A model generated the notes under the pieces. That model saw only the letters and a program-made list of their open reading frames with translations, ran no database searches and was not told the DNA's origin. The translations under genes and the position numbers were made by a program. Below, one piece after another: positions 1 through 11,441 of a stretch of 64,000 nt of DNA. Each line of letters opens with the position of its first letter. Positions within the stretch are counted from its first letter, which is position 1. This stretch comes from Terriglobia bacterium (GTDB lineage: Bacteria; Acidobacteriota; Terriglobia; Bryobacterales; Bryobacteraceae), in NCBI GenBank assembly GCA_020073145.1, contig JAIQFS010000003.1:124001-188000 (forward strand), written 5' to 3'.

Positions 1-977
1 TTGTTGGCCAAGTTGGGGTTGGCCCCGTGATCGAGCAGGTACGCGCCCACCTTGTAGTGCCGGTTCTGGGTCGCGGTCAGCAGCGGACTCCACCCGTAAT
101 TCGTCACCTGGTTGACGTTGGCGCCCGCTTCCACCAGCATCCGCACGCATTCCAGGCAGCCCTCGCGCGCGGCGTACACCATCGGCGTCAAGCCGCCGCC
201 GTCTTTGATCTGCGGCCCCCGGAAGAACGCCGCGAAGTCATCCACATCCGCCGCTGCTCCCGCGGCTCCGCCTGCGGCGCCCCCGCGTCCGCCTCGCCCG
301 CCCGCGCCCCGGCGGGCCCGTCCTGCTCCAAAATTCAGCGCGCCGCTTTGCTCCGAGTTCAACCGCTGCTGCACGCTCGGCGCGATGTTCAGCCGCGAAT
401 TCCGCGTGTCCGCGCCCGTGCTCGCGCTGATATCCGCCCCCGCGGCAATCAGCAGTTTGACGGCGTCGGCGTGATCCTGCTCCGCGGCCCACATCAAAGC
501 CGTGGTCCCGCGCAGAGTCTCTTTCGCATTGACATCGGCTTTATGATCCAGCAGCGCCTTGATGGCCGCGACATTGCCGTTGCGCGATGCCATCATCAGG
601 GCCGTCTCGCCGTTCGGTTGGTGTTCGTTCGGATCCGCGCCGGCTTTCAGCAGTTTCTCGATCATCGCCGCGCTGCCATTTTCGGATGCCAGCGAGAGCG
701 GGGTGGCGCCGTCATGGTTGGCCGCCTTCACGTTGGCCCCCGCGGCAATCAGCGTGTCCGCCAATTCCAGGTTGTCCCGATACGCCGCCCATTCGATCGC
801 CGTGGCCCCGTCCGGCTGCGCCGCGTTCACGTCCGCCTTCTGCCGGAGCAGCGAACGCACCGCCGTCGTATCCCCGTTCATGGCCGCGTCAGCCACTGGG
901 CTTCCGCCGGCGCCATAGGCGCTCAGCGATAACGCCAATCCTGCCGCACCGGCTACGACTGCATCTCTCAAGCGCAT
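1..977 (-). CDS. Secreted ankyrin-repeat protein (3' end beyond window)
   Basis: The frame is open from an ATG at 977 to base 1, so at least 325 residues are encoded and the C-terminus is missing. The N-terminus is a short signal-like stretch (MRLRDAVVAGAAGLALSLS). Then come ankyrin units with the usual ATAIEWAA / GATPLSLA / GETALMMA / GTTALMWAAE cores and ADVN-type turns at about residues 30-185. A Gly/Ala/Arg-rich linker at about 213-240 is followed by two or more further units. Ankyrin repeats bind proteins; no catalytic motif is visible. The gene lies 74 bp behind the DUF1552 gene on the same strand and is probably the third gene of the cytochrome operon. The partner is unknown. Confidence 0.85.
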   Translation of the reverse strand, partial: MRLRDAVVAGAAGLALSLSAYGAGGSPVADAAMNGDTTAVRSLLRQKADVNAAQPDGATAIEWAAYRDNLELADTLIAAGANVKAANHDGATPLSLASENGSAAMIEKLLKAGADPNEHQPNGETALMMASRNGNVAAIKALLDHKADVNAKETLRGTTALMWAAEQDHADAVKLLIAAGADISASTGADTRNSRLNIAPSVQQRLNSEQSGALNFGAGRARRGAGGRGGRGGAAGGAAGAAADVDDFAAFFRGPQIKDGGGLTPMVYAAREGCLECVRMLVEAGANVNQVTNYGWSPLLTATQNRHYKVGAYLLDHGANPNLAN

Positions 978-1051
978 CGTTCGCTCACTCCTTCTCGGCC
1001 GCCTCCCGCTTCCGGCGCAGCCCCTCGCGTCCGTTCTTCGATTCCTGCCGC

Positions 1052-2413
1052 TTACACCAGACCCGTCAGGTATCCCGTGCTGTCGCCCAGGCTCTCCTGG
1101 TGGATTCCGTACAAATTGATGATGCTCAACAGCAGGTTGCCGGTCGTAATCGTCTTGGTCGGAAACGCCAGGTGCCGTCCGCCCTTCAGTTGCCCCGACG
1201 CCCCGCCTACCAGAATGTGCGGCACGTCGTAATGCAAATGCTGGTTGGAATCGCCCATGTTGGTTCCATACAGCACCAGCGAGTGGTCCAACAGCGTGCC
1301 GTCCCCATCCGGTGTCTTCTGCAATTTATCGATGTAGTACGCCAGACACTTCACGTGATACTGGTTCAGCTTCGAGTACTGCGCGATGCGCTCCGGGTTT
1401 TCCGCGTGGTGCGACCCGCCGTGAAAGCTCAGGCTCGGAACATCGCTCGCCGGATACGCCCGGCCCGTCAGATCGCGTGCGAACAGCAGTGAAGAAACGC
1501 GCGTGATGTCGGCCTTGAACGCCAGCACCTGCAGGTCGAATTGCAGTTTGAGGTGTTCGTCGAACAACTCCGGAATACCGGTCGGAACCACCACCCCTTC
1601 CATCGAAACATTGCCCGTGGCCTTCTTGGCGATATCCAGCCGGCGCTCCAGTTCGCGGATGTCCTCGGTGTACTCGTCCAGCTTCGCCCGGTCGTCCGCC
1701 GGCAGGTCCTTCTTGAACCGCGCCAGGCTCTGCGTGACCGAATCGAGGATGCTCCGGTCCTGTTCGCGGCGCGCCGCGCGCTCTTCCGGCGTGCGCGCTT
1801 GTACATCCCCGAACAGGCGTTCGAACACAACCTGCGGGTTCAGTTCCATGGGCAGAGGCTGCTCAGGAGTGGCCCACGAGATCGAATTGGTGTAGGCGCA
1901 ACTGTAGCCCTCGCCGCAGTTGCTGGAATTGGCGCCCGGATCCTCGATCGCCAGTTGCAGCGAGGGCAGCAGCGTCTCCTGCCCGATCTTCTGCGCGATC
2001 AATTGATCGATGGTGGTGCCGTCCTGAATGTCCGCGCCCGTCGTCTTCTTCGGCTTGTCGGCACACATGAACGCCGCCGCCACCCAGTGGTCCGCCCCGG
2101 TCACGCCCGGAGGCGGCTCAGCCGACTTCGACCACATCCCGCTCAGAATCACCGTATGGTCCTTGTACGGCTCCAGCGGTTTCATGATGAACGGAAAGTT
2201 CCCCTCCTCCAGCACTGGTTTTTCCGGGATCCAATAGCCCGGCGCCATCCCGTGCGGAACAAAGATCCCCGTGAAGCGCGTCTTCGGAACCGCCGCCGTC
2301 TTTCGCAGGGGTGTTTGTGCCGGCACCATCGAATCCAGTAACGGCAACGCCAGGGCGACCCCGGCGCCGCGCAAGACGGTTCGGCGTGAGATGTGCTTCT
2401 TAGTAATAAACAT
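1052..2413 (-). CDS. DUF1552 family protein with Tat signal
   Basis: The 453-residue protein begins with a twin-arginine signal (SRRTVLRGAGVALALPLLD, about residues 9-28), so it is probably exported folded through the Tat system. The body matches the DUF1552 family: an early IFVPHGMAPGYWIP block, GADHWVAAAF, and a C-terminal LVLYGTNMGDSNQHLHYDVP segment. DUF1552 proteins are almost always encoded next to DUF1592-type cytochromes in Acidobacteria and Planctomycetes, and here the gene lies 50 bp downstream of one. The biochemical role is not established. The C-terminal His/Asp-rich block could bind metal, which is inference. Confidence 0.9.
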   Translation of the reverse strand: MFITKKHISRRTVLRGAGVALALPLLDSMVPAQTPLRKTAAVPKTRFTGIFVPHGMAPGYWIPEKPVLEEGNFPFIMKPLEPYKDHTVILSGMWSKSAEPPPGVTGADHWVAAAFMCADKPKKTTGADIQDGTTIDQLIAQKIGQETLLPSLQLAIEDPGANSSNCGEGYSCAYTNSISWATPEQPLPMELNPQVVFERLFGDVQARTPEERAARREQDRSILDSVTQSLARFKKDLPADDRAKLDEYTEDIRELERRLDIAKKATGNVSMEGVVVPTGIPELFDEHLKLQFDLQVLAFKADITRVSSLLFARDLTGRAYPASDVPSLSFHGGSHHAENPERIAQYSKLNQYHVKCLAYYIDKLQKTPDGDGTLLDHSLVLYGTNMGDSNQHLHYDVPHILVGGASGQLKGGRHLAFPTKTITTGNLLLSIINLYGIHQESLGDSTGYLTGLV

Positions 2414-2463
2414 GAGTCCCTCCCAGGGGTTCTGGTACTGATTCCGGTTTGCCGCGTCCGGCT

Positions 2464-4887
2464 CTAACGGGAGGCACGCAGCGTATGTTGTTGAGCATTC
2501 CCACTGACTTCAATCTTCTGATTCATCTGAAAGGGTTCGCTCTTCACCACGCCCAGCACCAGCGAGGAAAACCGGTAGTTGTTCTTCGCGGCGTCGCGCA
2601 CGATCGAGCGGATCAGGGGCATGTCGTAGTATTCCGTGCCGCGGCCGAGGGCGTAGATCATCAGCTTCTCCGTCACCAGCCGGACAAATTGAGGCGAATA
2701 GCGGAGCAGCGCGGTGCGCAGCCCCACTACCCCGTTCATCTTGGTGCCGTCCACCAGTTGGCCGCTGGCATCGATGGGGTTTCCTCGATCCACCGTGCGC
2801 CAGTGCCCGACGGCGTCGAAGTTCTCCAGCGAAAACCCAATCGGGTCCATGATCTTGTGGCAGCTCGCGCAGGGCTCAACGCTGCGGTGCATCTCCATCT
2901 GCTGGCGCATGCTCGGCTGCGCCGCACCGTGAACGTCGCTCGCGGTCTCCTTCAACTGCGGAACGATTGGCGGCGGATTGGGTGGGCTCACCCCGAGAAA
3001 CATCTGCATGATGGTCTTGCCGCGCACCGTGGGGGAGGTGCGGTTCACATAAGCCGTCACGGTCTCCACACTGGCTTTCCCCAAAAGGCCGCGGCGCATG
3101 TCGAAAGCCGGCGGCAGTTCCACCCGCCGGAAGTTGCTGCCGTAAATGTTCGGGATCCCATAGTGCTGCGCCAGACGCCCGTTGAGAAACGTGTAGTTGC
3201 CGTCCAGCAGATCCAGTACGCTCCGGTCCTCGTGCACAATGCTCTCGACAAACATCTCGGTCTCTTTGCGCATCGCCTGCCGCAGATTGTCGTCGAAATC
3301 CGGAAACTCCGAAGTCGTCGGTTCTTGCGTCTGTAAGCCGCGCAATTGCAGCCACTGCCCGGCAAAATTACTCACCAGTTGATTCGAGCGCGCGTCCGAC
3401 AGCATCCGCCGGACCTGTTGATCCAGCACCGCCGGTTCATGCAGCTTATTCTGGCTCGCCAGTGTCAGCAACTGGTCGTCCGGAATGCTGCTCCACAGGA
3501 AGAACGACAATCGCGAAGCCAGTTCTAGATCCGAGATCCGATACGGCTGCCCCGCCTTGGCGTTCGCCGGCTCCGTCTCCCGCCGGAAGATGAACTCCGG
3601 GTCCACCAGAATCCGCCGCAACGCCATCTCCACGCCGCTGTCGAAGTTTCCGTTGTTCCGGCCCTGCTGATAGAAGCCCATCAGCATCCCGGTGTCCTGG
3701 TTGGTCACCGGCCGCCGGAATGCCCGCCGCGCCAGCGTGTCGACAATCTGCTTCGCGCAGGCCGTTTCCTCCGCCGCGCCGGCTGGGTGGCACACATAAA
3801 TCCGCTTCCGGCTCTGCGAATCGCTCGCGCCCTTCGCGTTGGTCGGCCCGTCAATCGAGATCTTGCCCACATGCGGGAAAAACTTGAATCCCGGAAGTCC
3901 GCCCGTCTCGATCGTGCTGCGCAGGAAGTGCTGGTCCAGGTCGTTCCCCGGTGCGTAGTTGGTTGCCAGGAAGGTGACCACCACCTTGTGCGCTCCGGCC
4001 TTGGCCGGGAACTTGAAGTTGAACGTGCCGTCCTCGCGCGTCCGCTCCTTGTCCCAGTCGAACAACTTCAACCGCTGGCCGTCCATCAGGAATTCCAGCT
4101 TCTCGCCCGTAATCTCGCCGAACGGGCTGGTGTCGCCCATGTTCCCCTTGCTGATGGGTGTGATCTTAATGGCGTAGTCGCCATCCGCCGGGAAGTCGTA
4201 GGTCGCCAGTAGGCCGCCCCGGGTTCCGAACGGCATCCCTTCAATGTGATAGTCCTGCGACGTGTCCCCCGCTACCCGGAACACCTGCTGCACTGGAGAC
4301 GTGATGTCGCCGATCGCCAAACGGCTGATCTTTCCCGCCGCCGACGTGTACCCCTCCAACAGCGCCGGGGACAGCGACAACCCCGCCGCCACGTTGTCAA
4401 AACCGCGCGTGGAATCGTCCGGCGGCATGTACTTGCTGGCATCGATATTCAGCGCCAGCAGGTCGTGAATCGCGTTGGTGTATTCCGCCCGGTTGAGGCG
4501 ATGCAGACCCGGCGGCGGCAGGTTCGTCACCGCGTGGCGGTCCAGCTCGTTTTCCAGCCACTCGATCATGCCTTCGAAGGCAGCCCGGTCCGGCCGTGCC
4601 TCTCCCGCCGGCGGCATCATGCCCGCCCGCAATTTCCGCACTACCTTCTCCCAGTTTTCCGCATCTTTTTCCACATGCGCCGGGTCCAGCTTGTCCAGGT
4701 GCATCCCGCCGGAAGCCGCAGGCCCTGCGTGGCAATCAACGCAGTACTGGTCGAAAAGCTGGCTCTCCGCAGCCGCGGAAGCCACCGGCGTGACAGCCGT
4801 TTTTTGCGGTGTGGCAGTCTGCGCGGAAGCCGCCCAACCCACGAGCAGTATCCCCACGAATCCAATAACTGGTAATGTTTTCTTCAT
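2464..4887 (-). CDS. Planctomycete-type cytochrome c, DUF1587/1595/1592/1588/1585 protein
   Basis: The 807-residue protein has a signal peptide (about residues 1-22) and a haem-c motif CVDCH at 49-53. The family domain series follows: DUF1587 around LHRLNRAEYTNAIHDLL, DUF1595 around LARRAFRRPV, DUF1592 around DPEFIFRRE and LASRLSFFLWSS, DUF1588 around RGLLGKASVETVTAYVNRTS, and DUF1585 around YALGRGTEYYD. A second CXXCH (CASCH) lies near residue 672. Two haem motifs suggest a periplasmic electron-transfer or oxidative role; the substrate is unknown for the family. It leads a probable operon with the DUF1552 and ankyrin genes. The 280 bp upstream hold no gene. A TATAAT overlaps the start codon and so cannot serve that start as a conventional -10 box. 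Confidence 0.92.
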   Translation of the reverse strand: MKKTLPVIGFVGILLVGWAASAQTATPQKTAVTPVASAAAESQLFDQYCVDCHAGPAASGGMHLDKLDPAHVEKDAENWEKVVRKLRAGMMPPAGEARPDRAAFEGMIEWLENELDRHAVTNLPPPGLHRLNRAEYTNAIHDLLALNIDASKYMPPDDSTRGFDNVAAGLSLSPALLEGYTSAAGKISRLAIGDITSPVQQVFRVAGDTSQDYHIEGMPFGTRGGLLATYDFPADGDYAIKITPISKGNMGDTSPFGEITGEKLEFLMDGQRLKLFDWDKERTREDGTFNFKFPAKAGAHKVVVTFLATNYAPGNDLDQHFLRSTIETGGLPGFKFFPHVGKISIDGPTNAKGASDSQSRKRIYVCHPAGAAEETACAKQIVDTLARRAFRRPVTNQDTGMLMGFYQQGRNNGNFDSGVEMALRRILVDPEFIFRRETEPANAKAGQPYRISDLELASRLSFFLWSSIPDDQLLTLASQNKLHEPAVLDQQVRRMLSDARSNQLVSNFAGQWLQLRGLQTQEPTTSEFPDFDDNLRQAMRKETEMFVESIVHEDRSVLDLLDGNYTFLNGRLAQHYGIPNIYGSNFRRVELPPAFDMRRGLLGKASVETVTAYVNRTSPTVRGKTIMQMFLGVSPPNPPPIVPQLKETASDVHGAAQPSMRQQMEMHRSVEPCASCHKIMDPIGFSLENFDAVGHWRTVDRGNPIDASGQLVDGTKMNGVVGLRTALLRYSPQFVRLVTEKLMIYALGRGTEYYDMPLIRSIVRDAAKNNYRFSSLVLGVVKSEPFQMNQKIEVSGNAQQHTLRASR

Positions 4888-5167
4888 TATAGAGTATTCC
4901 GCGTCACAGACTTCACCGTCTCGAGCGCCGGGCCATTCGGGTACTGGCAGTCTAATTAAAGACGTTCACAGGCCTGGCGAAGGTAACCGCTTGGACCGCA
5001 CTGGAGCCGTTAAATCGACACCCCAAGTGCAGATCAACACCTGCGGAACCCGCGGCTGGATGCCGGTACATTGCGTTATCTCCAGGCTAATATACTCGGG
5101 GGCCGAAATGCTACCTGCAGACTCTGTAGTTACCGGCCCCGCCCGATAGCCATTTTGAGGGGGGGCG

Positions 5168-5878
5168 TTATCCTCCGTACTCCAAACCCGGGTACAGGGC
5201 CTTCAGGGAAAGGGCGAACAAAGGGGAAAAGATCGTGCCAAACACCTGCCACGCCACCAGCAGTCCAATGTAGCTGACGCCTCGGATCGAGTGTTCGAGG
5301 TCCAGCAGCCGCCCGGCCCGTTCCTCCGAGACGAGTAACCCCAATACCCCGAAACCATCCAGCGGCGGCACCGGAAGCAGGTTGAACGTCCCCAGCAGCA
5401 GGTTGAGCGAAAACAGCAGGCTCAGGAAGGTCGCCGCCCCGCTCGCCAGCCCCGGCTTCACTGCGTCCACTACCTGCATAAAGCTGGTGGCGTCGGGGTA
5501 CTGAAAGGCGCCGGTCCAGATCCCCACATGGATCAGAATTCCAGCCAGAATCGCCAGCGCGAAGTTCGCCGCCGGCCCCCCCAGCGACATCCAGGCCGCC
5601 CGCCGCGGGTGCTGCCGGGCCCACACCGGGTCGTAGGGCGCGCTCGCCCAGCCCATCATCCATCCCCCCAACGCGTACGAGAGCAGCGGAAAGATCACCA
5701 TCCCAAACGGCTCCCGCCGGATGTGCGGAGTGGGATCGAGCGACACTTGGCCGCCATGAAATGCCGTCAGGTCGCCGCCCAGCTTCGCCGCCAGCGCGTG
5801 CGCCGCCTCATGACACGTGGTCGATAGCAGAAAAACCACGTACCAGACCACTCCCGCAATCACGAAATCCGTGTTCAT
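5168..5878 (-). CDS. Site-2-protease-like M50 family membrane protein
   Basis: The 236-residue polytopic protein carries the zinc metalloprotease signature HEAAH at 23-27 in its first membrane segment and a second family motif, LPVPPLDG, at about 168-175, whose Asp is the usual third metal ligand. Several hydrophobic segments lie between (FGMVIFPLLSYALGG, FALAILAGILIHVG, FLSLLFSLNLLLG). This is the compact rhomboid-sized M50 type without a PDZ domain. I chose the ATG at 5878; an upstream in-frame start would add 17 Gly/Pro-rich residues before the hydrophobic segment. The substrate is unknown. The gene stands alone, upstream of and co-oriented with the cytochrome operon but 280 bp away. Confidence 0.85.
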   Translation of the reverse strand: MNTDFVIAGVVWYVVFLLSTTCHEAAHALAAKLGGDLTAFHGGQVSLDPTPHIRREPFGMVIFPLLSYALGGWMMGWASAPYDPVWARQHPRRAAWMSLGGPAANFALAILAGILIHVGIWTGAFQYPDATSFMQVVDAVKPGLASGAATFLSLLFSLNLLLGTFNLLPVPPLDGFGVLGLLVSEERAGRLLDLEHSIRGVSYIGLLVAWQVFGTIFSPLFALSLKALYPGLEYGG

Positions 5879-6051
5879 GCCGCCCCAAGTATACCCTCCG
5901 GGCCCGCCCATCGAAACGCGGGGAGCCAAACCTAAGGCCGCGGCCTGATCACGCAGGGCCGACAGATCGTGTGTTCCTCAAAGCGGACATGTTGACGAGT
6001 TAACGACACGGGCCTGCTGGACACGAGCTTGGTAGACTGAATGGAATACCT

Positions 6052-8628
6052 ATGCCGCTTTCCGCCGGCGACAAACTGGGCCCCTACGAAATTGTGGCAC
6101 CTCTCGGCAAGGGCGGCATGGGCGAGGTCTATCGGGCTCGCGATTCGCGCCTCGGCCGCGATGTCGCCATCAAGGTCTCGGTCGAGCGCTTCACCGAGCG
6201 CTTCGAGCGCGAGGCCCGCGCCATCGCCGCCCTCAACCACCCCAACATTTGCACGCTCTTCGATGTCGGCCCCGACCATCTGGTCATGGAACTGGTCGAA
6301 GGACCGACTCTGGCCGAGCGCATCAAGGAAGGGCCCATTCCCGTGGACGAAGCCCTCCGCCTTGCGCACCAGATCGCCGAAGCCCTCGAAGCCGCCCACG
6401 AAAAAGGCATCGTCCATCGCGACCTGAAGCCCGCCAACATCAAGATCAAGCCCGACGGCCTGGTCAAAGTGCTGGATTTCGGGTTGGCCAAAGCCATGGA
6501 GGCGCGCGACTCCGGGGCCCCCGACCTCACCGCCTCCCCCACCCTCACCCTGGAAGCCACCCGCGCCGGCATGATCCTCGGCACCGCCGGCTACATGAGT
6601 CCCGAGCAGGCTCGCGGCAAGCCCGTCGACCGGCGCGCCGATATCTGGGCCTTCGGCGTGGTCCTCTATGAGATGCTCGCCGGCAAAGCCACTTTCGAAG
6701 GAGAGACCGTTTCCGACACGCTGGCCGCCGTCCTCCGCGCCGACATCGATTGGTCGCAGCTTCCTGCCAAAACGCCGCCCCGCCTCCGCCGCCTCTTGAA
6801 CCGCTGTCTCGAGCGCGATCCCAAGCGCCGCCTCCGCGACATCGGCGATGCCTGGATCGAAATGGACGCCCCCGACGAGCAGGCTGCCGACGCCCCTGTT
6901 TCCACGTCCCGCCCCGCTCGCTGGTTGCCCTGGATCGCCGCCGCTGGCATCGCTGCCGCCGGCGTGGGCTGGGGCCTGTTTCACACGCCGCCCGCGCCGC
7001 CTCGCCAGGTCCTTCGCTGGTCCTACACCGAACCTACTTACTTCGGCTTGGTGGCGCTGTCCCGCGATGGATCCCGACTCGTCTACACCGAGCTCACCGG
7101 CGCCACCACGCGCCTGGTGTTGCGAATGACCGATGACTCGGAGCCCAAACCCATCGCCGGCACCGAAGACGCCATCTATCCCTTTCTCTCGCCCGACGGC
7201 CAGTGGTGCGCCTTCTTCACCCAGGATGGCAGGCTCAAGAAAGTCCCCGTCACCGGAGGCTCCCCTCTCGTCCTGGTCGATTCCTCCGCCAATGGCCCCG
7301 GCGATTGGGGAGAAGACGGCACCATTGTCTACACGCGGCGGCAAGGCCTCGCCCGGGTCCCGGCTGCCGGCGGTATGCCTCAGTCTCTCACTACCGTGAA
7401 CCCTGCCAAAGGCGAGACCAGCCATCGCGCCCCTCGATTCCTGCCCGGAGGCCGGAGTCTTCTCTATACCATCTCCTCTGGCGCCTCCAATCAAATCGTC
7501 GCCCGTGATCTAAAGTCCGGCGTCGATCGCGTCGTCGTCACCAATGGCATCGACGGAGATTACGTTCCCACCGGGCACCTCGTCTACTTGCGCGGCAACA
7601 CCCTCTTCGGCGTGCCCTTCGATCCCCGCCGTCTCGCCGTCACCGGCCCGGAGTCCGTTGTGGTTCAGGGAATCTCCACGGCCTTCAACGCCGGCGGCGA
7701 TTATACGTTCTCCAATTCCGGTCTGCTGGCTTACATGAGCGGTACGGGCCAGTCCGGCACCACCATCCTCGCCTGGGCCGACCGCAAGGGTTCCGTCGAA
7801 CCGATCTCCGAACCCAAAGGCTGGGGCACCGGCCACCTCTCCCCAGACGGCCTGCGCGTCGCCAATTCCATCGGCGTGAACGGCCCTAGCGATATCTGGG
7901 TCTTTGACACCGTCCGCCGCACCGCAAACCGCCTGACCTCCGACGGAACTGGCCACGACCCCATCTGGTCTCCCGACGGCCGCCGCCTCGCCTTCAGCGG
8001 CACCCTCGGAGGAAAGATCGGAATCTATACCATGCCGGCCGACGGGAGCGGCAAACCGGAACTGCTGCTCGCGACCGACTCGCCCGCCACCCCCACCTCT
8101 TGGTCTCCCGACGGAAAAAGCCTGGTCTTCGTCCACGCCGGCCCGGATCATAAATCCCATCTCTGGAGGGTGGCTCTGCCGGACGGCAAACCTGTCTTGC
8201 TCCATGACACTCCGTTCGCGGAATCCGATGGCCAGATCTCTCCCGACGGCCGCTGGTTGGCGTACGTCTCCAACGAATCGGGACCCAATGAGGTCTATGC
8301 CCAGCCCTTTCCTGGACCCGGCGGGAAGATCCGCGTTTCCACCCAGGGCGGCGACCGGCCCCGCTGGGCGCGCTCCGGGCGCGAGCTGTACTATTGGGGC
8401 GGGATGAACCTGGGCATGATGCAGATTAGTGTGGAGACCGCACCCGCATTTCACCTGGGCTTGCCCGAGGAACTCTTCAAATCGGTCGTCGGCACCACGT
8501 TCGGTGTGGCTCCCGATGGCAAGCGCTTCCTCGTCGAAACTATCCCGGGCATCCAGGGCGGTCAGCACATGGAAGTCGTGGTCAACTGGTTCGACGAACT
8601 GCGGCAACGTGCCCCCGTTTCCAAATGA
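6052..8628 (+). CDS. Receptor-like Ser/Thr protein kinase with PD40 beta-propeller
   Basis: The 858-residue protein has an N-terminal Hanks-type kinase: Gly-rich loop GKGGMGEVY (19-27), ATP-binding Lys41, catalytic loop HRDLKPAN with Asp124, and DFG at 142-144. SPEQARGK and ADIWAFGVVLYEM follow. A single membrane segment (WLPWIAAAGIAAAGVGWGLF, about 290-310) leads to an extracytoplasmic region of about 540 residues with repeated SPDG.W blocks (LSPDGQWCAFF, WSPDGRRLAFSG, WSPDGKSLVFVH, ISPDGRWLAYVS), the WD40-like PD40 propeller. It is likely a sensor kinase with an outer ligand-binding propeller. Its TGA overlaps the ATG of the anti-sigma kinase gene (ATGA), so the two should be translationally coupled. 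Confidence 0.95.
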   Translation: MPLSAGDKLGPYEIVAPLGKGGMGEVYRARDSRLGRDVAIKVSVERFTERFEREARAIAALNHPNICTLFDVGPDHLVMELVEGPTLAERIKEGPIPVDEALRLAHQIAEALEAAHEKGIVHRDLKPANIKIKPDGLVKVLDFGLAKAMEARDSGAPDLTASPTLTLEATRAGMILGTAGYMSPEQARGKPVDRRADIWAFGVVLYEMLAGKATFEGETVSDTLAAVLRADIDWSQLPAKTPPRLRRLLNRCLERDPKRRLRDIGDAWIEMDAPDEQAADAPVSTSRPARWLPWIAAAGIAAAGVGWGLFHTPPAPPRQVLRWSYTEPTYFGLVALSRDGSRLVYTELTGATTRLVLRMTDDSEPKPIAGTEDAIYPFLSPDGQWCAFFTQDGRLKKVPVTGGSPLVLVDSSANGPGDWGEDGTIVYTRRQGLARVPAAGGMPQSLTTVNPAKGETSHRAPRFLPGGRSLLYTISSGASNQIVARDLKSGVDRVVVTNGIDGDYVPTGHLVYLRGNTLFGVPFDPRRLAVTGPESVVVQGISTAFNAGGDYTFSNSGLLAYMSGTGQSGTTILAWADRKGSVEPISEPKGWGTGHLSPDGLRVANSIGVNGPSDIWVFDTVRRTANRLTSDGTGHDPIWSPDGRRLAFSGTLGGKIGIYTMPADGSGKPELLLATDSPATPTSWSPDGKSLVFVHAGPDHKSHLWRVALPDGKPVLLHDTPFAESDGQISPDGRWLAYVSNESGPNEVYAQPFPGPGGKIRVSTQGGDRPRWARSGRELYYWGGMNLGMMQISVETAPAFHLGLPEELFKSVVGTTFGVAPDGKRFLVETIPGIQGGQHMEVVVNWFDELRQRAPVSK

Positions 8629-9035
8629 GCGAGATCGACCTCACTTTCGACGGCGACCTGCAAGAGGTTGAACGCCTGGCCACCGAGGTCGAGTGGTATT
8701 GCCAGGAGAACGGGCTCGATAGCGAGGTCGAGTTCGATCTGAACCTGGCTCTGGAAGAGTTGTTCGTCAATGCCCTGCGGCACGGGGGGTGCCAAGGCAT
8801 CAAAGACGCCGTGCGCGTCCGCCTCGTGCGCCAGAAGGATGGCGTCCGCGCGGAGTTCTCCGACTGCGGGCCGGAGTTTGATCCCGCGACCGCGCCCCAG
8901 CCCGACCTGGAAGGGCCGCTGGCGGGCCGGCCGATCGGCGGCCTGGGCCTGCATCTGGTGCGCCACACCATGAGCGGCCTCGAGTACCGCCGCGCCGACG
9001 GACGGAATTACGTGACCATGTGGAGGCCGATTTGA
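8625..9035 (+). CDS. RsbW/SpoIIAB-like anti-sigma regulatory kinase (HATPase_c_2)
   Basis: The 136-residue GHKL ATPase has the N box LALEELFVNALRHGG (Glu and Asn for Mg-ATP), the G1 box DCGPEFDP and the G2 box GRPIGGLGLHLVRH. Length and layout fit the serine-kinase anti-sigma family that phosphorylates a STAS antagonist and sequesters a sigma factor or another target. It starts inside the stop codon of the Ser/Thr kinase and its end overlaps the STAS gene, so the partner-switching pair is encoded together. No sigma factor gene is nearby, so the target is unknown. Confidence 0.92.
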   Translation: MSEIDLTFDGDLQEVERLATEVEWYCQENGLDSEVEFDLNLALEELFVNALRHGGCQGIKDAVRVRLVRQKDGVRAEFSDCGPEFDPATAPQPDLEGPLAGRPIGGLGLHLVRHTMSGLEYRRADGRNYVTMWRPI

Positions 9036-9349
9036 TCCAGTTAACACACGAAATGCGCTCGGGTTGGTGCGTCGTGGTGGCGCGCGGGCGCGCTGACTCC
9101 GCCGCTGCCGATGAGCTCGAAGCCGCGCTGCGCTCCGCCGTCGAGCAGAGTCCCAAAGTCGCCGCCGATTTGGGGGCTGTCGATTACATCTCCAGCGCCG
9201 GCCTCCGCGCCATCCTGCAAGGAGCCCGCGCTGCCCAGGAATGCCGCGGCGAGTTCGTCGTGTGCCGCTTGACGGCGGGCGTCAAACGGGTTTTCGAGAT
9301 GAGCGGCATGCGCCACATTCTGCGAATCGAGGAGGAACTGCCATGCTGA
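9020..9349 (+). CDS. STAS-domain anti-sigma factor antagonist
   Basis: The 109-residue single STAS domain ends its core with DLGAVDYISSAGLRAILQ (about 50-67). The Ser-Ser pair at 58-59 is where SpoIIAA/RsbV proteins are phosphorylated by the cognate RsbW kinase. The GTG at 9020 gives a 16-bp overlap with the RsbW-like gene; a TTG at 9032 is an alternative start. Its 3' end overlaps the GPP34 gene by 7 bp. It is the expected switch partner of the preceding kinase. Confidence 0.9.
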   Translation: MEADLIQLTHEMRSGWCVVVARGRADSAAADELEAALRSAVEQSPKVAADLGAVDYISSAGLRAILQGARAAQECRGEFVVCRLTAGVKRVFEMSGMRHILRIEEELPC

Positions 9350-10011
9350 CCATGCTCGAAGAAGTCGTCCTGCTCGCCGTCGACGAGAAGACCGGCACCC
9401 TCCGCTCCACGCGCGAATTCGGGACCGCCTACGCCCTCGTGGGCGCCGTCTTCTTCGACCTGGCATTGGCGCGCAAAATCGACACCGACACCGAACAGAT
9501 CCAGATCCTCGATGCTAGTCCCACCGGCAACCCGACGCTGGACCGCGTCCTCACGGAAATGCGCGGCCGGCCCGAGGTCAAGACCGTTCGCAACTGGATC
9601 GAGGCCCTCTTCCAGTCCAAGGACGATCTGGAGGGTCAGGCGCTGGCTTCGCTGATCGAACGCGGCATCTTGCTGCACGAAAAAACCAAGCGCCTGTGGA
9701 TCATCGACGTCGAGCGGTTTCCGCTGGTCAACAACCAGCCCCAGGAGCACGTCAAGCTGCGCCTCACCCGCGCCATTCTGGGAGACGGAATCCCCGAGAC
9801 CCGCGACATCATGCTCGTGAGCCTCGCCGAGCCCTGCGGCCTGCTCGGCTTCTTTCTCACCGACATGCAGCGCGCCGTGCGCGGAGAGCGCATCCGCATG
9901 CTCTGTCACCTCGAGACCATCAGCCGCAAGGTAGCCGAAGCCATCGCCGCTCTGGACGCCAGCCTCCGCCAGGGCGGCTCCACCAGCAACGCAGCCCAAT
10001 CGCTGCGGTGA
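9343..10011 (+). CDS. GPP34 (GOLPH3/VPS74-like) family protein
   Basis: The 222-residue protein starts at the ATG at 9343, preceded by a strong ribosome-binding site (GAGGAGGA, 7 nt away). MLTMLEEVVLLAVDEKTG, the mid block LIERGILLHEKTKRLWII and the late block ILGDGIPETRDIMLVSLAEPCGLL are typical of the GPP34 family. The eukaryotic member GOLPH3/Vps74 binds phosphatidylinositol-4-phosphate and retains Golgi glycosyltransferases. The bacterial members are mostly uncharacterised. Overlap with the STAS gene suggests it is the output or a partner of the phospho-switch, perhaps at the membrane surface; that is inference. I see no signal peptide or membrane segment. Confidence 0.85.
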   Translation: MLTMLEEVVLLAVDEKTGTLRSTREFGTAYALVGAVFFDLALARKIDTDTEQIQILDASPTGNPTLDRVLTEMRGRPEVKTVRNWIEALFQSKDDLEGQALASLIERGILLHEKTKRLWIIDVERFPLVNNQPQEHVKLRLTRAILGDGIPETRDIMLVSLAEPCGLLGFFLTDMQRAVRGERIRMLCHLETISRKVAEAIAALDASLRQGGSTSNAAQSLR

Positions 10012-10022
10012 CGGCGAACGCG

Positions 10023-11441
10023 TTAGTGGGCCTTCAATTCGTCACGGAAGACGACTCCGCCCTTCATGACGAATTTAACCCGCTCCATTTCGGTGATGTC
10101 GGCCAGCGGATCTCCCGACACCGCCACCAGATCGGCGAACTTTCCCTTTTCGACGCTGCCGACTTGTTGGCCGAGGTCGAAGTTCAACCCCTCGGCGGCG
10201 TTGCTGGTCGCCATCCGCAGGGCCTGCGCCGGCGTCATCCCCCATTTCACGTAATACGCAAACTGGAACGCCTGCACGCCGTGTCCCACCGTGTACGCGC
10301 CGCTGCCGAAGACTTCTTCGATACCCGCCGCTACCAGCCTCTTGAAGCTCGCCTCCGTCAGTTTGAAGCGCGTGGTGCGGCCGCCGCTGGCCTTGAGATC
10401 CCGTTCCTCCAGCTCGCCCTTCAAATCCCACAAAGTCTGGATCACTGGGCGCGGCTTGCCGTCCGCCTGCGGCTGCTTCAGCAGCCGGATCGTCTCATCG
10501 TCGAGCCCCTCCGCGCCCGTCACCCCCACGATCACGTGCATCGGCAGGTCCACCCCCGCCGCCAGGCAGTTGCGGAGCCCCTCTCCTCCGTAGGCATGGC
10601 ACGCCACTTTCAATCCCCTACGGTGCGCCTCGTCGACGATCGCCTGGTTCTCTTCGAGCGTCAGCGACGGCACGTTGATCATCTTCCCGTCCGGCGTGAA
10701 GGCGCCCGCGCCTTGCGTCGGGTATCCGCCGCCTTCGTAATCCTCGGTTTCGTAGACTTTGATCCAATCCACGCCGTAGTGCGAGCGCTCACGGACCGCC
10801 GCGCGCGCCAGCCACGGCGAATTGATGTTGCCGGAATTCTGAAAATTATTGCTGCCCGGACCCAGCCCGAACGGCACCACCACTGAGGGCGCCGCATAGT
10901 ATGTCGCGCCGCGCGGATTGAGTTGCGGCCCCGCCACCTGCAGCCGCGGCCCCGCCACCAGGCCCTTGTTGATGGCATCCCGCAGCTCCACGGTGGCATA
11001 GCTGAAGCCCGACCCCATGTCCTGCAGGGTCGTAAACCCGGCGTGCAGATCGGCCAGCGCGTAGTTCAACCCGGTCAGCGCCGCGCGCCCATCGTTAACC
11101 TGCTGGTCCTGGATCAGGTGCACATGGCGGTCGATCAATCCCGGAAGCACCGTGGCCCGGCTCAGGTCGATCACCCGCGCGCCCGCTGGAATCGTCACCC
11201 GGTTGGCCGGCCCCACTTCCGCGATCCGGTCGCCCTGAATCACGATCACCTGATTCGTCAGATAGGCCCCGGTCTTAGGATCGAACAGCCGCCCCGCTCG
11301 CACCGCCACACCCGCGGCCGGCGGAGCCTGCATCTCGATCCGCGAGCCGTCGAACGGCCCCGCCTGCGGCCGCGCGCTCTGCGCCGCTAGCGGCAGCGCA
11401 AGGATCAGACACGCGAACCCCGACCCGCATCTCCATGGCAT
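10023..11441 (-). CDS. Secreted amidohydrolase family protein
   Basis: The 472-residue protein has a signal peptide (about 1-20, ending LPLAAQ) and the amidohydrolase metal motif PGLIDRHVHLIQD with His106 and His108. DWIKVYET supplies a candidate bridging Lys, followed by VACHAYGGEGL and AGVDLPMH. The C-terminal LGQQVGSVEKGKFADLVAVSGDPL strand block closes the composite beta sandwich. This is the imidazolonepropionase/prolidase-like group of periplasmic amidohydrolases, common in Acidobacteria and acting on unknown amides or dipeptides. It converges on the GPP34 gene with an 11-bp gap. Confidence 0.9.
   Translation of the reverse strand: MPWRCGSGFACLILALPLAAQSARPQAGPFDGSRIEMQAPPAAGVAVRAGRLFDPKTGAYLTNQVIVIQGDRIAEVGPANRVTIPAGARVIDLSRATVLPGLIDRHVHLIQDQQVNDGRAALTGLNYALADLHAGFTTLQDMGSGFSYATVELRDAINKGLVAGPRLQVAGPQLNPRGATYYAAPSVVVPFGLGPGSNNFQNSGNINSPWLARAAVRERSHYGVDWIKVYETEDYEGGGYPTQGAGAFTPDGKMINVPSLTLEENQAIVDEAHRRGLKVACHAYGGEGLRNCLAAGVDLPMHVIVGVTGAEGLDDETIRLLKQPQADGKPRPVIQTLWDLKGELEERDLKASGGRTTRFKLTEASFKRLVAAGIEEVFGSGAYTVGHGVQAFQFAYYVKWGMTPAQALRMATSNAAEGLNFDLGQQVGSVEKGKFADLVAVSGDPLADITEMERVKFVMKGGVVFRDELKAH

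Follow-up and report, generated by a model that had tools for sequence, protein, structure and literature searches.

What does a bacterial partner switch act upon when a GOLPH3-like protein, and no sigma factor, is encoded beside it? The question is posed by the window considered here—the whole 64,000-nucleotide stretch of contig JAIQFS010000003.1 from a Terriglobia bacterium (Acidobacteriota, Bryobacteraceae)—in which four overlapping genes, all verified by Pfam, follow one another in the order kinase, RsbW, STAS, GPP34 (Table 1). Little work has been done on GPP34 proteins of bacteria, to which no molecular role has yet been assigned. An earlier note on this DNA took the four genes for a complete phospho-relay with GPP34, or a membrane process, as the controlled output.

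Gene content of the locus

Two elements of a partner switch are present: a HATPase_c_2 serine kinase with N and G boxes, and a single-domain STAS protein with an acceptor serine. In RsbW the N-box (E45/N49/HG), the G1 box (DxG..FDP) and the G2 box (GGLG) are invariant across 12 homologues. Both serines of the STAS motif YISSAGLR are invariant in 15 sequences, the candidate phospho-acceptor being S59 in the numbering from the GTG start, equivalent to S55 from the TTG start. The four genes include no sigma factor gene, just as the earlier note had stated; none directly flanks them either, and no SpoIIE/PP2C phosphatase gene is found within the operon. Upstream of the region the window also encodes a planctomycete-type cytochrome/DUF1592-1588-1585-1587-1595 protein (2464-4887).

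The gene overlaps had been given as 4, 16 and 7 bp. The first (kinase/RsbW, ATGA) and the last (STAS/GPP34) stand, and the 16 bp between RsbW and STAS hold only if STAS starts at GTG 9020. That start is disfavoured, since most homologues begin with MIQ or MIE, matching TTG 9032, from which the overlap is 4 bp (TTGA).

Table 1. Features of the four-gene region (window positions) and of the fusion locus L066 (last row, positions in that locus)
Feature	Position	Strand	Evidence or remark
Ser/Thr protein kinase with PD40 repeats	6052-8628	+	Pfam Pkinase, E 7e-48
RsbW-like serine kinase/anti-factor	8625-9035	+	Pfam HATPase_c_2, E 7e-25
STAS anti-anti-factor	likely 9032-9349 (TTG start); alternative GTG 9020	+	Pfam STAS_2/STAS, E 1e-12
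GPP34/GOLPH3-like protein, 222 aa; candidate output	9343-10011	+	Pfam GPP34, E 1e-37
STAS/GPP34 7-bp overlap, ATGCTGA	9343-9349	+	GPP34 start codon within STAS stop region
GPP34-molybdopterin oxidoreductase fusion (L066)	7977-10886		divergent from STAS gene and RsbW-like gene

Conservation of the STAS-GPP34 block

GPP34 is patchily distributed in the phylum, being detected in 42 of 396 genomes (37 over the curated cut-off). Within the family it exceeds the cut-off in 13 of 150 genomes, and the four congeners that were sampled besides this genome all lack it. The M50 neighbour of the locus finds only weak matches in four congeners, and no empty insertion site is definable. The named relatives of the locus group belong to the Bryobacteraceae/Solibacteraceae of the Acidobacteriota, which are bacteria of soil.

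Among the Bryobacteraceae-type loci, of which 17 are distinct, GPP34 is without exception directly preceded by one and the same dedicated STAS gene, and the overlap between the two is kept as NTG-YTR-A (7 bp); at most of these loci a GGAG-like Shine-Dalgarno sequence sits just 5' of the GPP34 start, inside the STAS gene. RsbW adjoins the pair at 12 of the 17 loci and lacks this adjacency at five, in one of which (L109) it is found about 5 kb upstream. The 17 loci constitute one clade and therefore do not represent 17 independent events. Only one locus of the family, L066, departs from this pattern: its GPP34 forms a fusion with a molybdopterin oxidoreductase, beside which the STAS and RsbW genes are divergent, and an ABC substrate-binding protein is encoded nearby.

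The flanking genes are mostly unrelated between loci, apart from a few related pairs such as L059/L062, which means that the STAS-GPP34 block survives rearrangement. The linkage of a sigma-less partner-switch pair to GPP34, described by the earlier note for a single genome, extends beyond it, and the conserved unit is STAS-GPP34, usually accompanied by the RsbW kinase, rather than a four-gene relay. Could the arrangement reflect nothing but shared expression, with the genes sharing a transcript and no functional interaction? Operon position by itself is indeed no proof of interaction, but the retention of the block while its neighbours change and the invariance of the coding overlap make this explanation highly improbable.

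STAS also adjoins GPP34 in two further lineages, upstream in family f8 (L009/L070) and downstream in f48, whose GPP34-STAS order is seen in 14 loci (L013-L026). At L080 (5838-9049) a Xan_ur_permease-family transporter, GPP34 and STAS lie in a row on one strand. Locus L109 carries, also on one strand (191-11180), genes for RsbW, an ABC substrate-binding protein, a STAS protein, a permease and an ABC ATPase, followed by STAS-GPP34 and then by another STAS gene and a CheB/CheR-PAS histidine kinase; this cluster might supply the switch with a ligand-sensing input. Numerous GPP34s of Acidobacteriota have no such partners, and plasmid-borne GPP34s from other phyla (Pseudonocardia, Chroococcidiopsis, Mesobacillus) have no adjacent STAS or RsbW in the annotated records, so that control by STAS is no general property of GPP34 proteins. 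No natural STAS-GPP34 fusion occurs among the loci retrieved.

In gene trees the GPP34s with an upstream STAS make up one clade (support 100/100), as do the GPP34-linked STAS proteins (99/99), which identifies STAS and GPP34 as a co-inherited pair. The sister of this GPP34 clade (97/88) comprises P450-fused GPP34s together with the f48 GPP34, which has STAS downstream; just outside fall the molybdopterin fusion and an f8 member whose STAS gene is upstream. Eleven RsbWs of RsbW-STAS-GPP34 trios cluster (82/86), and that of L091, whose gene order is STAS-GPP34-RsbW, is placed outside the main trio group with strong support (97/93), which suggests that RsbW was probably added to the STAS-GPP34 core on two or more occasions. 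Midpoint rooting and the long L066 branch limit finer conclusions from these trees. All three genes are under purifying selection, with dN/dS of about 0.03-0.45 and RsbW evolving fastest.

The propeller kinase

Is the propeller Ser/Thr kinase the dedicated sensor of the switch, as a four-part relay would require? It has one transmembrane segment at about residues 291-311 (by eye), an extracytoplasmic PD40 beta-propeller and, by reading, HRD and DFG motifs, and its ATGA translational coupling to RsbW in its own genome is consistent with such a role. However, no homologue of the kinase is present at any further GPP34 locus in the family, where the upstream-side neighbours of RsbW belong, as far as Pfam recognises them, to varied other families: GH10, sortilin-like, GFO/IDH, DsbA-like, amidohydrolase, peptidase and HD response regulator. 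The genome itself holds at least 12 similar kinases including that of the window (12 strong matches), that is, at least 11 paralogues. The closest outside relative, 62% identical, is found in genome G415 on a contig other than that of the G415 trio, with no RsbW, STAS or GPP34 nearby.

Absent from other loci, rich in paralogues and with its 62% relative unlinked to the trio, the kinase is rejected as a conserved module member and is probably a local addition, despite its translational coupling to RsbW here. These observations, together with the lack of a SpoIIE gene in the operon, do not bear out the 'complete phospho-relay' of the earlier note. We regard the four-part relay as quite improbable; it could exist as a lineage-specific addition in this one genome.

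The question of a sigma factor target

The genome has one GPP34, that of the window, against 10 STAS domains and about four stand-alone RsbW-type ATPases; given these numbers and the recurrence of the neighbourhood elsewhere, the linkage to GPP34 is more than chance. Eight SpoIIE matches exceed the cut-off, none of them in the operon. A second, separate RsbW-STAS pair (G000:C83:25416-26165) is unlinked to GPP34, because the only GPP34 of the genome sits in the window.

An ordinary sigma switch, in which the partner of RsbW would be a sigma factor encoded elsewhere, with GPP34 as no more than a co-expressed accessory, would agree with the canonical motifs of RsbW and STAS, and five full-length sigma-70-type matches (90-134 bits) offer possible targets. 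However, no sigma factor of the genome, these five included, attains the SigB/F/G family cut-off of 234 bits, which makes a sigma target less likely. The immediate neighbourhood is likewise devoid of sigma genes, and STAS pairs with GPP34 at 17 of 17 loci, oftener than RsbW does. We therefore hold such a switch to be unlikely.

The GPP34 protein

The GPP34 of the window scores 130.5 bits in Pfam against a cut-off of 29.1, and its AF2 model (pLDDT 80) matches GOLPH3 (9qpq; VIA Z 18.9) and Vps74 (17.3) over about 190 residues, with nothing else above 3.3. In GOLPH3, PI4P is bound by W81, R90, R171 and R174 (PMC13408441). A profile alignment pairs these with R24, V33, D94 and E97; among the homologues position 33 is never basic and 13 of 14 have Glu at position 97. 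The phosphoinositide binding to which the earlier note had alluded thus fails at the residue level, as all four PI4P-binding residues are replaced, and it is rejected as the functional basis. The client-binding D247 of GOLPH3 aligns with G166.

The membrane-inserting beta-hairpin of GOLPH3 (190-201) corresponds to residues 112-126 of the window protein (HEKTKRLWIIDVERF), where L118 and W119 are invariant and the model has pLDDT <50. This stretch is among the most conserved parts of GPP34, its core WIIDVERF having been one of the two patterns used in the peptide-pattern scan for loci.

Relatives of the protein occur fused to enzymes. GPP34 fused N-terminally to a cytochrome P450 is confirmed by Pfam in L076, L077, L082 and L083, and L078, L079 and L088 resemble these by ORF length and tree position; such fusions occur in several acidobacterial lineages. 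Long ORFs around GPP34 measure 671-812 aa, and the four that were scanned are P450 fusions. The extra N-terminal parts of L073 and L091 match no family and look like 5' read-through. Next to the P450-GPP34 gene of L083 are genes for an RND transporter and for a methyltransferase whose C-terminal part matches sterol methyltransferases. By analogy, the P450 and molybdopterin oxidoreductase fusions of relatives suggest that GPP34 serves as a membrane-tethering adaptor, and it is on the GOLPH3 fold, the putative hairpin and these fusions that we base its reading as a putative peripheral-membrane adaptor.

A possible mechanism

What, then, could the switch be doing? We favour a sigma-less partner switch with a dedicated target, the GOLPH3-fold protein GPP34, which would be controlled through phosphorylation of STAS by RsbW, and put the probability of this reading at roughly 55%. 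STAS and GPP34 would be made together from their overlapping genes and are most likely the regulated pair. RsbW would phosphorylate the STAS serine S59/S55, thereby switching whether STAS (or RsbW) engages GPP34. We infer that the phospho-state of STAS sets whether GPP34 is free, through either STAS-GPP34 or RsbW-GPP34 binding. That the switch works by touching GPP34 directly is plausible, and STAS is favoured as the direct partner because it is linked more tightly to GPP34 than RsbW is. Resetting of STAS would probably fall to one of the genome's roughly eight SpoIIE-type phosphatases, encoded away from the locus. GPP34 itself, with its GOLPH3 fold and putative hairpin segment but with the PI4P pocket lost, would probably bind the membrane as a peripheral adaptor.

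The direction of control might also be the reverse, with GPP34 as a membrane-state sensor that recruits STAS and RsbW to the membrane and the signal passed to some other target. The same linkage data fit this scheme, and STAS domain proteins such as SypA do act on unknown targets (PMC8256260). Against it, the N-terminal P450 and molybdopterin oxidoreductase fusions of relatives are tether-like rather than sensor-like, and no downstream target is linked; we judge this scheme fairly unlikely.

If GPP34 is indeed the target of the switch, a further, tentative extension may be considered, one that we would not call likely: phosphorylation of STAS might switch the hold of a GOLPH3-like adaptor on membrane client enzymes, giving a regulated, unfused enzyme-retention system. 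The analogy is with the same GPP34 superclade, in which P450s and molybdopterin oxidoreductases are tethered by direct fusion in other lineages.

The conserved translational coupling gives a specific hypothesis, namely that STAS binds GPP34 in a phosphorylation-dependent manner. If true, a membrane adaptor would join the known targets of partner switching, and there would be a hint at how GOLPH3-like proteins work without phosphoinositides.

Comparison with known systems

The coupling of an RsbW-STAS switch to GPP34 is apparently undescribed so far: a literature search confined to published, openly accessible papers found nothing joining GPP34 with STAS or with Acidobacteria, in keeping with the earlier note's opinion of the GPP34-linked partner switch.

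Among the closest parallels are the SpoIIAB/SpoIIAA/sigmaF and RsbW/RsbV/sigmaB switches of Bacillus, which share the Bergerat-fold serine kinase, the single-domain STAS protein with an acceptor serine and the translationally coupled genes. In contrast to these, the present locus has no sigma gene, GPP34 occupies the downstream place and no PP2C phosphatase is linked. In SypE/SypA of Vibrio fischeri and BtrW/BtrV of Bordetella a serine kinase likewise controls a STAS protein, the target of SypA being unknown (PMC8256260); those systems are without GPP34, whereas in the present locus a coding overlap joins STAS to the gene of its likely target. MlaB, the STAS subunit of the Mla lipid transporter, is another non-sigma, membrane-linked STAS regulator, and its partner is an ABC transporter and not a GOLPH3-fold protein (PMC7367683).

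On the side of the target, SCO4440 of Streptomyces coelicolor is the only bacterial GPP34 with a reported phenotype that we found, affecting peptidoglycan composition and wall-deficient cells (PMC12402492). Its synteny, unlike that seen here, is with the D-Ala-D-Ala carboxypeptidase gene sco4439, and no partner switch is reported for it (PMC12402492). The eukaryotic Golgi adaptors GOLPH3/Vps74 share the fold with the window protein, in which the stretch matching their hairpin is conserved and which differs from them in lacking the PI4P residues and D247 and in having a link to STAS and RsbW in place of PI4P and acylation (PMC13408441).
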